Positions 26,195 to 29,043 of a stretch of DNA of 64,000 nt are shown piece by piece. Within the stretch, counting starts at the first letter, position 1. Every line of letters starts with the position of its first letter. The DNA comes from Pseudomonas morbosilactucae (lineage in GTDB: Bacteria; Pseudomonadota; Gammaproteobacteria; Pseudomonadales; Pseudomonadaceae). The stretch spans positions 62,001-126,000 of the forward strand of contig NZ_JALQCW010000036.1 of assembly GCF_023241715.1 (NCBI RefSeq), written 5' to 3'. The notes under the pieces were generated by a model. The model was not told the DNA's origin. It worked only from the letters and a program-made list of their open reading frames with translations, and did not search any database. The position numbers and the translations under genes are program-made.

Positions 26195-26228
26195 GCTGGC
26201 CTCGATAGTGGCTCACAAACACATTACC

Positions 26229-26319
26229 TGTAGGCGCTGGCTTGCCAGCGCAGCAAGCGACGCGAACTCAGCCGGCTGGGCGGAGTTCGCGGGATTCGCC
26301 GGCAAGCCGGCTCCTACAA
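26229..26319. repeat. REP doublet between bioF and bioB
   Basis: TGTAGGCGCTGGCTTGCCAG (26229 on) and its inverted partner GCCGGCAAGCCGGCTCCTAC (26298 on) flank about 45 unique bases, the REPIN arrangement. It could form a long stem-loop in the bioB-bioF transcript. Confidence 0.85.
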
Positions 26320-26329
26320 TAGAAGGCGA

Positions 26330-27385
26330 TCAGACGGCGGCGTTGTAGAACTGCTCGCTGCTCTTCTGCTCGACCAGGGCTTGCTCGATGGCCGCCTGAT
26401 GTACTTCGTCAGCGTGCTCTTCACGGGCTTCCGGCTGGATGCCCAGACGTGCGAACAGTTGCATGTCCTTGTCAGCCTGGGGGTTGGCAGTGGTCAGCAG
26501 TTTGTCGCCGTAGAAAATCGAGTTGGCGCCGGCGAAGAAGGCCAGGGCCTGCATCTGCTCGTTCATGGCTTCACGGCCGGCCGACAGGCGTACATGGGAT
26601 TGCGGCATCAGGATGCGCGCCACGGCCAGCATGCGGATAAAGTCGAACGGGTCGACATCGTCAGCGTTTTCCAGGGGCGTACCGGCGACTTTCACCAGCA
26701 TGTTGATCGGCACCGACTCAGGGTGCTCCGGCAGGTTGGCCAGTTGGATCAGCAGGTTGGCGCGGTCGTCCAGGGACTCGCCCATGCCGAGAATGCCGCC
26801 GGAGCAGATTTTCATTCCGGCATCGCGCACATACGCCAGGGTCTGCAGGCGCTCGCTGTAAGTGCGGGTGGTGATGATGCTGCCGTAGAACTCCGGCGAG
26901 GTGTCGAGGTTGTGGTTGTAGTAGTCGAGGCCGGCCTGGGCCAGGGCTTCGGTCTGATCCTGGTCCAGGCGGCCCAGGGTCATGCAGGTTTCCAGGCCCA
27001 TGGCCTTCACGCCTTTGACCATCTGCAGCACGTAGGGCATGTCTTTGGCCGACGGGTGCTTCCAGGCGGCGCCCATGCAGAAGCGGGTCGAACCAATGGC
27101 CTTGGCACGAGCGGCTTCTTCCAGGACCTTCTGCACTTCCATGAGCTTTTCTTTTTCCAGCCCGGTGTTGTAGTGGCCGGACTGCGGACAATATTTGCAA
27201 TCTTCCGGGCAGGCGCCGGTCTTGATCGACAACAGGGTGGAAACCTGGACGCGATTGGCGTCGAAATGCGCGCGGTGCACCGTCTGCGCCTGGAACAACA
27301 AATCGTTGAATGGCTGAACGAACAAGGCTTTGACTTCAGCCAAAGACCAGTCATGACGCAGGTTGGCGGTGGTGCTGGCGCTCAT
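26330..27385 (-). CDS. bioB: Biotin synthase BioB (radical SAM)
   Basis: A 351-residue radical SAM enzyme that inserts sulfur into dethiobiotin. The 4Fe-4S motif is Cys59-Cys63-Cys66 in [12 protein letters not shown], and residues of the second cluster lie in FCMGAAW, TCMTLG and SAGREAM. It is the first gene of the biotin cluster. Its promoter overlaps a BirA-type inverted repeat at 27483-27513, which would give biotin-dependent repression. Confidence 0.98.
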
Positions 27386-27460
27386 GGGCGATTCCTTGAT
27401 TATGCTTGGCTAACGACTGCGGGCAGGCAATACCCACAACCGCGACACGGATGTTCGGCA

Positions 27461-27513
27461 TATTTAAGGAAGCGCCATGCACTGTCAACCAGAATACAAA
27501 GGACCGGTTTACA
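27461..27513 (-). promoter_or_regulatory. bioB promoter with overlapping BirA-type operator
   Basis: On the minus strand TTGACA (27483-27488) and TAAATA (27461-27466) form a sigma-70 promoter with a 16-base spacer. The -35 hexamer lies inside the left arm of an inverted repeat TGTCAACC (27483-27490) / GGTTTACA (27506-27513) with a 15-base spacer, close to the TTGTAAACC...GGTTTACAA biotin operator. The repeat also lies in the first codons of comF. Confidence 0.65.
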
Positions 27514-28217
27514 TCTGGTTAAATAACAACCAACCCTGCTTACTCTGTGATCTCCCCAGCCAGACCGCCGCGCCCATTTGCCAAGCCTGCAAGAGCGAGC
27601 TGCCCTGGTTGGGCGATCAGTGCCGGATCTGCGCCCTGCCCCTGCCCGACAGCGGGCTGATCTGCGGCCAGTGCCTGAAACAGCCCCCCGATTTCAAGCA
27701 GGTGGTGGTGCCTTGGGCCTACGGGTTCCCCATCGACAGCCTTATCCTGCGCTTCAAGCACAACGGGAAATGGCCTTTTGGCAACCTGATGGCCGGTCTT
27801 CTCGGCCACTCGCTGCACTTTCGCTTCAACGAGGGTTTGCCCCGACCCGACGCGCTGGTCCCCGTGCCCCTGGCCACCAAGCGCCTGCGACAGCGCGGCT
27901 ACAACCAGGCGGCGATGCTTGCCCACTGGCTCAGCCAACAGCTGGGCATCGCCAGCGAGGAACACCTGCTGCTGCGCACCCAAGACACCCAGGCGCAACA
28001 GACACTGGATGCCCGTGCCCGGCAACGCAACCTGCGCCAGGCCTTTGCCCTGGCACCCGGCGCGCAAGTGCAGGGCCGTCACCTGGCCTTGGTGGACGAC
28101 GTGCTGACCACCGGCGCCACCGCTCAAACCCTCGCCCGCCTGCTGCTCCGGGCCGGCGCCCGGCGAGTGGATGTGTATTGCCTGGCACGCACCCCGAAAC
28201 CCGGGGAGGCTGACTGA
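27477..28217 (+). CDS. ComF family phosphoribosyltransferase-like protein
   Basis: A 246-residue ComF protein, needed for DNA uptake in naturally competent species. The N-terminal zinc-finger region has four CxxC pairs (CLLC, CQAC, CRIC, CGQC). The C-terminal type I PRTase domain has VPVPLATKRLRQRGYNQA and the PRPP loop LVDDVLTTGAT. It is divergent from bioB. AAGGAAGCGCC precedes the ATG at 27477. The first codons coincide with the biotin-operator-like repeat, so its expression may also respond to that site. Confidence 0.9.
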   Translation: MHCQPEYKGPVYIWLNNNQPCLLCDLPSQTAAPICQACKSELPWLGDQCRICALPLPDSGLICGQCLKQPPDFKQVVVPWAYGFPIDSLILRFKHNGKWPFGNLMAGLLGHSLHFRFNEGLPRPDALVPVPLATKRLRQRGYNQAAMLAHWLSQQLGIASEEHLLLRTQDTQAQQTLDARARQRNLRQAFALAPGAQVQGRHLALVDDVLTTGATAQTLARLLLRAGARRVDVYCLARTPKPGEAD

Positions 28218-28278
28218 CTTGACAGCCACCCCCCAAGCCGCAAACTCGCCCCACTCCCAGCCTGCAAAGCACCTCGTC

Positions 28279-29043
28279 ATGCCCATGCCCAGTTTGTTGA
28301 CCCAGCACATCGTCCGTCGCCCGCAGCGCATCGCCCTGCTGCAACACATCGCCGAGCAGGGCTCCATCACCCGCGCCGCGAAAAGTGCTGGCCTCAGCTA
28401 CAAGGCCGCCTGGGACGCCATCGACGAGTTGAACAACCTGGCGCAAAAGCCCCTGGTGGAACGCAGCATCGGCGGCAAGGGCGGCGGCGGCGCCAAACTG
28501 TCCAGCGAGGGCCAACGGGTGTTGCGCCTGTACCAGCGCCTGCAAGCCTTGCAGGCCCAGGTCCTTGAGGCCGCAGAAGACGCCAGCGACCTCGATCTGC
28601 TGGGGCGGCTGATGCTGCGGACCAGCGCCCGCAACCAATTGCACGGCACGGTGCAGGCGATCACCGCCCATGGCTGCAATGACCTGATCCGCCTGGAGCT
28701 GGCCGGCGGCCTGACCCTCCAGGCGCAGATCACCCACGACAGCACCCTGCGCCTGGAACTGGACCTGGGCACCGAAGTGGTGGCGCTGATCAAGGCCGGC
28801 TGGCTGGAGCTGCTCGCCCCCGAGCAACCAGAAACACTTGGATACAATTGCCTGGAAGGTCGAATTGAGGGACTTCTCGACACCGAAGACGGCCCCAGTG
28901 AGGTGCGCATCAGCCTGCCCAGTGGCCAGACCTTGTGCGCCCTGGCCGAGCCTGCGCAGTTGCGTAGCCTCGCGCTGAGCCCGGGTCAGACGCTGCGGGT
29001 GCAGTTCACACCCGGCAACGTTCTGCTGGGCACGCCGCTGTAG
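28279..29043 (+). CDS. modE: Molybdate-responsive regulator ModE
   Basis: A 254-residue ModE-type regulator. An N-terminal LysR-like winged helix (RIALLQHIAEQGSITRAAKS, SYKAAWDAIDELN, then GGKGGGGAKLS) is followed by two TOBE/Mop molybdate-binding domains (SARNQLHGTVQAITAHG and GYNCLEGRIEGLL). I start at MPMPSLLTQ (28279); an earlier in-frame ATG at 28171 lies inside comF and would add 36 residues unlike the family. No modABC transport genes lie nearby, so it must act on distant targets. Confidence 0.9.
   Translation: MPMPSLLTQHIVRRPQRIALLQHIAEQGSITRAAKSAGLSYKAAWDAIDELNNLAQKPLVERSIGGKGGGGAKLSSEGQRVLRLYQRLQALQAQVLEAAEDASDLDLLGRLMLRTSARNQLHGTVQAITAHGCNDLIRLELAGGLTLQAQITHDSTLRLELDLGTEVVALIKAGWLELLAPEQPETLGYNCLEGRIEGLLDTEDGPSEVRISLPSGQTLCALAEPAQLRSLALSPGQTLRVQFTPGNVLLGTPL

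Follow-up and report, generated by a model that had tools for sequence, protein, structure and literature searches.

Genes and features at the bioB-comF locus

The window, which is the whole analysed stretch of 64,000 nucleotides from Pseudomonas morbosilactucae, carries bioB on the minus strand (26330..27385) and comF on the plus strand (27477..28217) in divergent orientation. Both were identified from their open reading frames and domain matches: bioB encodes 351 amino acids with Radical_SAM and BATS domains, and comF encodes 246 amino acids with a DZR_2 zinc ribbon and a PRTase domain. A four-cysteine zinc finger followed by the PRTase, with both domains scoring over their cut-offs (PF18912, 30.4 bits; PF00156, 26.6 bits), places the comF product in the ComFC family. 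The gene is preceded by a ribosome-binding site, AAGGAAG (27466..27472, plus strand). The minus-strand reading frames that follow bioB we take to be bioF, bioH, bioC and bioD, and the frame after comF (28171-29043) presumably encodes a ModE-type molybdate regulator.

Between positions 27483 and 27513 lies a BirA-type inverted repeat, TGTCAACC-N15-GGTTTACA, which is not assigned to a strand; it begins with codon 3 of comF and ends on the first base of codon 13 (in full TGTCAACC-AGAATACAAAGGACC-GGTTTACA, the middle part being the 15-base spacer). The left arm TGTCAACC (27483..27490, plus strand) encodes Cys3, Gln4 and the CC of Pro5, and the right arm GGTTTACA (27506..27513, plus strand) comprises the last base of codon 10, Val11, Tyr12 and the first base of codon 13; comF begins ATG(27477) CAC TGT CAA CC, and the right end of the repeat reads GTT TAC A. 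Against the published BirA consensus, TTGTAAACC-[N14/15]-GGTTTACAA (PMC545781), 15 of the 16 inner arm bases fit and the N15 spacer is allowed; the outermost consensus bases are mismatched, with a C preceding the left arm and a T following the right. The preliminary description of this DNA had placed the repeat near the biotin operator consensus, and the comparison bears this out. It had also equated the operator with ComF residues 3-12: the coding overlap stands, and the extent has to be corrected to include the first base of codon 13.

The operator is located at the promoter of the biotin operon. The -35 box of bioB, TTGACA on the minus strand (27483..27488), lies wholly within the left arm and takes up six of its eight bases. 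The -10 region (27460..27466, minus strand), which touches the comF ribosome-binding site on the opposite strand, is weak in the window genome: TAAATA at 16 bp and AAATAT at 17 bp each match TATAAT at 3/6 positions, the latter keeping A2 and T6. A generic promoter scan over 26200-28500 listed no promoter. Given the empty scan and the weak -10, a strong sigma-70 promoter in the window genome was rejected; of the promoter TTGACA-16-TAAATA, earlier called good, the -35 box in the left arm is upheld and the -10 box is the weak point. The best bioB -10 scores 3 in 106 of the 109 in-frame genomes of the genus (defined below). The promoter reads TTGACA-16-TATGAT in 8/8 genus genomes with a non-coding operator, and outside the genus a -10 matching at 5/6 or better occurs at 40/90 loci (0.444 against 0.014 in shuffles), with all 40 boxes at 16 bp when 16-18 bp were tried. 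These promoters of relatives, with a good -10 at 16 bp, support the identity of the -35 box of bioB with part of the left arm.

Conservation of the operator within the genus

Among 119 genomes of the genus, 110 carry the operator over the comF start, eight carry it separated from comF, and one (L106/G024), which with five mismatches falls outside the 110, has a degenerate right arm, AGTCAACA. One member of the 110 (L104/G106) has an N14 spacer and a comF frame shifted relative to the left arm, both arms being intact; it stands outside the 109 genomes in which operator and gene are in frame. A weakened right arm (GTCAACA) was noted in L105, L106 and L111, where BirA control is perhaps lost. In L121 (G080) the comF match is split into two pieces that lie in different frames, owing perhaps to a frameshift in the gene or to an assembly error.

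The arms are conserved at the level of DNA. TGTCAAC of the left arm is invariant in 109/109 in-frame genomes. Codon 3 is TGT in all 109, whereas Cys21 is encoded by 60 TGT and 49 TGC, and Cys24 by 23 and 86, respectively; codon 4 is CAA in all 109, compared with 60 CAA and 40 CAG at Gln19. At codon 2 the third base is C in 108/109 despite a variable residue, and at codon 13 the first base is A in 109/109 though the residue is Ile, Asn or Lys. Silent changes in the 109 genomes were counted on a bioB tree, which is independent of comF. Codons 3, 4 and 12 have none and are the sole zeros among 82 conserved degenerate comF codons; Phe93 has two, Leu236 three and Val11 five, the other Cys codons have 8-27, and most of the remainder 10-40. 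Under comF's own codon usage codons 3, 4, 11 and 12 would jointly occur with a probability of 0.0026 per genome. Conservation of the repeat beyond the constraint on the ComF protein, which the preliminary description had proposed as a check, is therefore borne out by the codons with zero silent changes.

Beyond the right arm, an AT-rich block (27514..27533, not assigned to a strand) contains a near-fixed rare codon, TTA at Leu15, and a similar block is found as non-coding DNA in the separated lineages. Where residue 15 is Leu (86 genomes), it is encoded by TTA in 82, compared with 65/3490 (1.9%) of the later comF Leu codons (31-230), and Lys16 and Lys18 are encoded by AAA only. The block may act in the bioB promoter as an upstream element, or it may provide flanking contacts for BirA. 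A second conserved element, CACGGAT (27446-27452), lies upstream of the comF ribosome-binding site; each of its bases is conserved in 90-95% of the overlap set but the element is not evident in the separated lineages, and it may belong to a comF promoter or a regulator site.

In the eight genomes with a separated operator, the repeat precedes the position equivalent to ComF residue 1 by 65-602 bp and is non-coding, with an N14 spacer and a distance of 88-99 bp from the bioB start; one arm base is changed in two of the eight (L117, L120). Six of them have a reading frame of 97-100 aa, membrane-protein-like in appearance, between operator and comF. Viewed more broadly, a membrane-like frame of about 97-128 aa in the orientation of comF occupies this place in L110, L114-L117, L119, L124 and L125, and it might itself be controlled by the operator. 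Past the right arm, the separated loci have a block that resembles the 5' end of comF but contains an in-frame stop: the comF frame reads VYI*SNNNQ* in L114 and VYIWLNNNQ in the window. At 7/8 loci no more than 4/2000 shuffles reach the likeness of the first 20 bases, the exception being L117 with 57; over bases 23-60 past the right arm these loci have no likeness to the comF 5' end. Retention of a comF-5'-like block beyond the right arm suggests that the overlap predates the separation of operator and comF.

In the genus, ComF has 20 residues ahead of the first zinc-ribbon cysteine, several of them dictated by the operator. The AlphaFold model is confidently folded from roughly residue 20 onwards; residues 1-6 and 8-16 have pLDDT values below 50. 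Residues 1-21 of Helicobacter pylori ComFC are already zinc finger (PMC9005727), so the N-terminus of the genus ComF has no counterpart there.

The putative repressor and the specificity of the site

The window genome encodes a biotin ligase with an N-terminal helix-turn-helix (group II) on a separate contig of 3.3 kb (G000:C141:2237-3193). Its HTH_11 domain scores 41.5 bits (PF08279, cut-off 25), a ligase domain and BPL_C are also present, and query residues 2-315 align to E. coli BirA (1BIA); TIGR00122 matches the N-terminus at 4.6e-13 with 51.8 bits, below the curated cut-off of 70 bits. The preliminary description had named a BirA devoid of a DNA-binding domain as a finding that would speak against its reading, and the strain has the opposite: PF08279 is above its cut-off and 1BIA aligns from residue 2 onwards.

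In the order, a BirA protein match was obtained in 118/145 genomes. In 12 the match begins at residue 70 or later, so that the HTH region would be missing, a count that leaves out the fragmentary matches of G163 and G209 and includes three weak ones. The exact operator occurs in 0/12 of these genomes; seven have a fetched comF locus, and all seven are without bioB beside comF, so that loss of the HTH is mostly inseparable from loss of the bioB-comF pair. Among the genomes without a BirA match, 20 were listed (seven more were not), and 14 of the 20 bear the operator: G138, G122, G126, G129, G130, G139, G147, G149, G169, G171, G184, G199, G200 and G230. A search of these 14 for the ligase with TIGR00121 gave 0/14, and TIGR00122 gave weak matches in 5/14 (E 3.4e-5 to 9.2e-4). 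The 14 genomes count against the BirA-operator reading. All are drafts of at least 30 contigs, birA is often close to contig ends across the order, and the birA of the window genome itself lies on a 3.3-kb contig; assembly gaps are therefore suspected and are the likely reason for the missing BirA.

The exact pattern TGTAAACCN{13,17}GGTTKACA has a single match in the 7.23 Mb of the window genome and 93 sites in 93 of the 119 genus genomes. Exact sites in the fetched bioB/comF loci number 87+6=93, so that all 93 are at the bio locus. The reversed pattern, taken as a control over the genus, gave two palindromic sites in two genomes. By these counts, the operator at bioB/comF is not a chance match. 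With up to three mismatches, and with N14 and N15 spacers included in the search, the window genome has 11 sites with N15 (the operator counted) and 15 with N14, compared with six each for the reversed pattern. The additional sites have three mismatches with N15 and two or three with N14, and since their number exceeds the control, weak additional BirA sites are possible. Four N14 sites have two mismatches, and the reading frames near three of these were inspected by eye; no biotin gene was recognised near them. One lies 57 bp before a TssA-like frame, one by an HNH-nuclease-like frame and one inside rplC. The frame downstream of the first of these (L378, G000:C38:2405-2434) we take to resemble the type VI secretion protein TssA.

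Occurrence outside the genus

Outside the genus, 108 loci of the order were compared, L122 having been dropped as a repeat of G028; 21 genomes outside the genus, among the 131 order genomes with a comF match, were not among the fetched loci. In 85 of the 108, bioB is divergent beside comF, and 75 of these 85 have the operator with at most two mismatches, the other ten having no site. At the 23 loci where bioB was not seen beside comF, no operator was found near comF (0/23). The comF starts were assigned by a simple rule, and their register against the operator varies: the start abuts the right arm in 31 loci, lies inside the spacer or right arm in 8, upstream of the left arm in 12, downstream in 20 and farther than 200 nt in 3, and none was found in 1. 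In-frame stops occur just past the right arm in L132, L137 and L150, which represent other families. This drift of the start between lineages would be expected of an operator whose first role is at bioB.

A scan across the class matched 24/229 genomes. Among 23 class loci outside the order (L366 and L367, the window and its family, being excluded), 18 have a comF hit next to the site, and at 15/18 the comF start codon borders directly on the right arm, though these loci were selected for having the site and the counts are not frequencies; the other five (L358, L360, L361, L369, L375) have no comF hit. Closer reading of six of the loci from other orders showed an additional gene of 129-154 aa upstream of bioB and co-directional with it, from which it follows that the operator heads the bio operon there. 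The frame in question, in L354, L356, L359, L363, L370 and L371, is membrane-protein-like by look. In a further scan with named matches (at least 120 stretches), 118 of the 119 stretches with a comF hit have the site at ComF residue 1; of the titles among the matches listed, 77/80 are Pseudomonas, the others being an Arenicellales MAG, Atopomonas and a 'Pantoea'. Records of P. putida (L249, L277, L309) are among those with the overlap. The overlap of comF and operator is, on the genomes compared, not peculiar to the window strain or to its genus.

Discussion

How is a repressor site in the first codons of a neighbouring gene to be understood? We consider the inverted repeat to be, very probably, a BirA operator of the ordinary kind, which serves bioB and is overprinted on the first codons of comF. 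Besides the 14 genomes with no ligase match, some observations weigh against this reading: the weak -10 in the window genome and genus, the TIGR00122 score below its cut-off, the two mismatched outermost bases, the degenerate right arm of L106/G024 and the ten order loci with bioB beside comF that have no site at two mismatches. Binding of BirA at 27483-27513, its need for biotinyl-AMP and the repression of bioB are carried over from E. coli BirA. By this analogy, a BirA dimer with biotinyl-AMP would occupy the site under biotin excess, mask the TTGACA -35 box and turn bioB transcription off. The first 13 codons of comF would be held by the needs of DNA binding, and the peptide CQP-x5-VY would be their by-product.

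The same operator might also control comF, as the preliminary description had suggested, with biotin-loaded BirA repressing bioB at its -35 box and comF by occlusion or as a roadblock inside its start. We regard this as conceivable but lean against it. The site spans comF codons 3-13, and an operator of 40 bp, the size given for E. coli (PMC4382993), would extend to the border of the start codon. The start codon abuts the right arm at 31/108 order loci and at 15/18 comF-side sites of other orders, and in such relatives transcription of comF would be expected to start close to or at the bound protein. There is also precedent in E. coli, where one operator serves two divergent transcripts (PMC5438404). 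On the other hand, a search for a comF promoter in the genus gave a best plus-strand -10 of 4/6 in 101/109 genomes, none of them convincing. Outside the genus a plus-strand -10 is present at 19/90 loci (0.211 against 0.086 shuffled), and 13/19 are near-mirrors of the bioB -10; this candidate comF promoter was dropped, as its peak mirrors the bioB box. Moreover, comF persists without the operator in the separated lineages, and none of the 23/23 loci lacking bioB beside comF has an operator. Hindrance of comF by bound BirA, as a block just inside the gene, gains plausibility from the predicted position of the protein, which would cover the first codons and, in many relatives, the start codon as well; it is only possible, and the balance tilts somewhat against it.

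That the comF start is misplaced, the operator really lying in the comF leader, is very improbable. Many relatives start comF inside or after the operator, and 13/109 genus genomes have another ATG, GTG or TTG in codons 2-20; against this, position 27477 is the only ATG, GTG or TTG before Cys21 in the window, the ribosome-binding site and start hardly vary across the 109 genomes (27468 G and 27470 A in 109/109, 27469 G in 108), and stops occur in codons 1-21 in 0/109. We can give hardly any credence to the remaining explanation, that the repeat is fixed by a need of the ComF protein or by start-of-gene codon preference and only incidentally resembles an operator: residues C3, Q4, V11 and Y12 are indeed conserved, and codons near gene starts are often AT-rich, but the reading is rejected by the silent-change count (zero at codons 3, 4 and 12), by the joint codon probability and by the survival of the arms in a shifted frame, next to stops and in non-coding DNA. 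The low-confidence N-terminus of the predicted structure, and the H. pylori ComFC in which the zinc finger already occupies residues 1-21 (PMC9005727), add to the case against it.

The system most similar to the present one is E. coli bioO (PMC5438404), situated between the divergent bioA and the bioB operon, with which it shares a BirA-type inverted repeat, a divergent bioB and a BirA with HTH; here, however, the partner is comF instead of bioA, the operator is coding and one arm contains the -35 hexamer. Predicted BirA regulons have the same consensus and spacer (PMC545781; PMC5343134), the variants TGTcAACC and GGTTgACA appear in Table 1 of PMC545781, and such regulons are stated for gamma- and deltaproteobacteria (PMC5343134). 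BirA has already been called a repressor of biotin synthesis in P. aeruginosa (PMC9894557). In the accessible parts of PMC545781 and PMC5343134, comF is not mentioned (0 occurrences in PMC5343134). A linkage of comFC with biotin genes is already in print, as bioH adjoins a divergent comFC or gntX (PMC5438404). In that neighbourhood, too, a comF-family gene is divergent to a biotin gene, but the latter is bioH, which is described as not BirA-regulated in E. coli, and the accessible text mentions no operator overlap (PMC5438404). The H. pylori ComFC has the same zinc finger and PRTase, to which the genus ComF adds 20 N-terminal residues (PMC9005727). A search of titles and abstract openings found no description of a BirA operator inside comF among the papers listed. 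The operator type is already known; judged by titles and abstract openings, what appears to be new is its overlap with the comF start.

Conclusions

The bioB-comF locus is a clear-cut natural example of a repressor site that overprints the start codons of a neighbouring gene, for which evolution has supplied the controls: operators that share the comF frame, that are shifted against it, that adjoin stops and that stand apart from comF. The overlap accounts for the odd conserved N-terminus of ComF and cautions against reading the peptide as functional. A possible link between biotin and comF becomes testable through silent mutations. A still more tentative proposal, which we think unlikely, is that the biotin regulon includes comF, so far unnoticed, across much of Gammaproteobacteria and that Pseudomonas recruited the operator as coding sequence. 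If it were true, one operator on or inside the comF start would let biotin status switch both biotin synthesis and a protein that handles single-stranded DNA.
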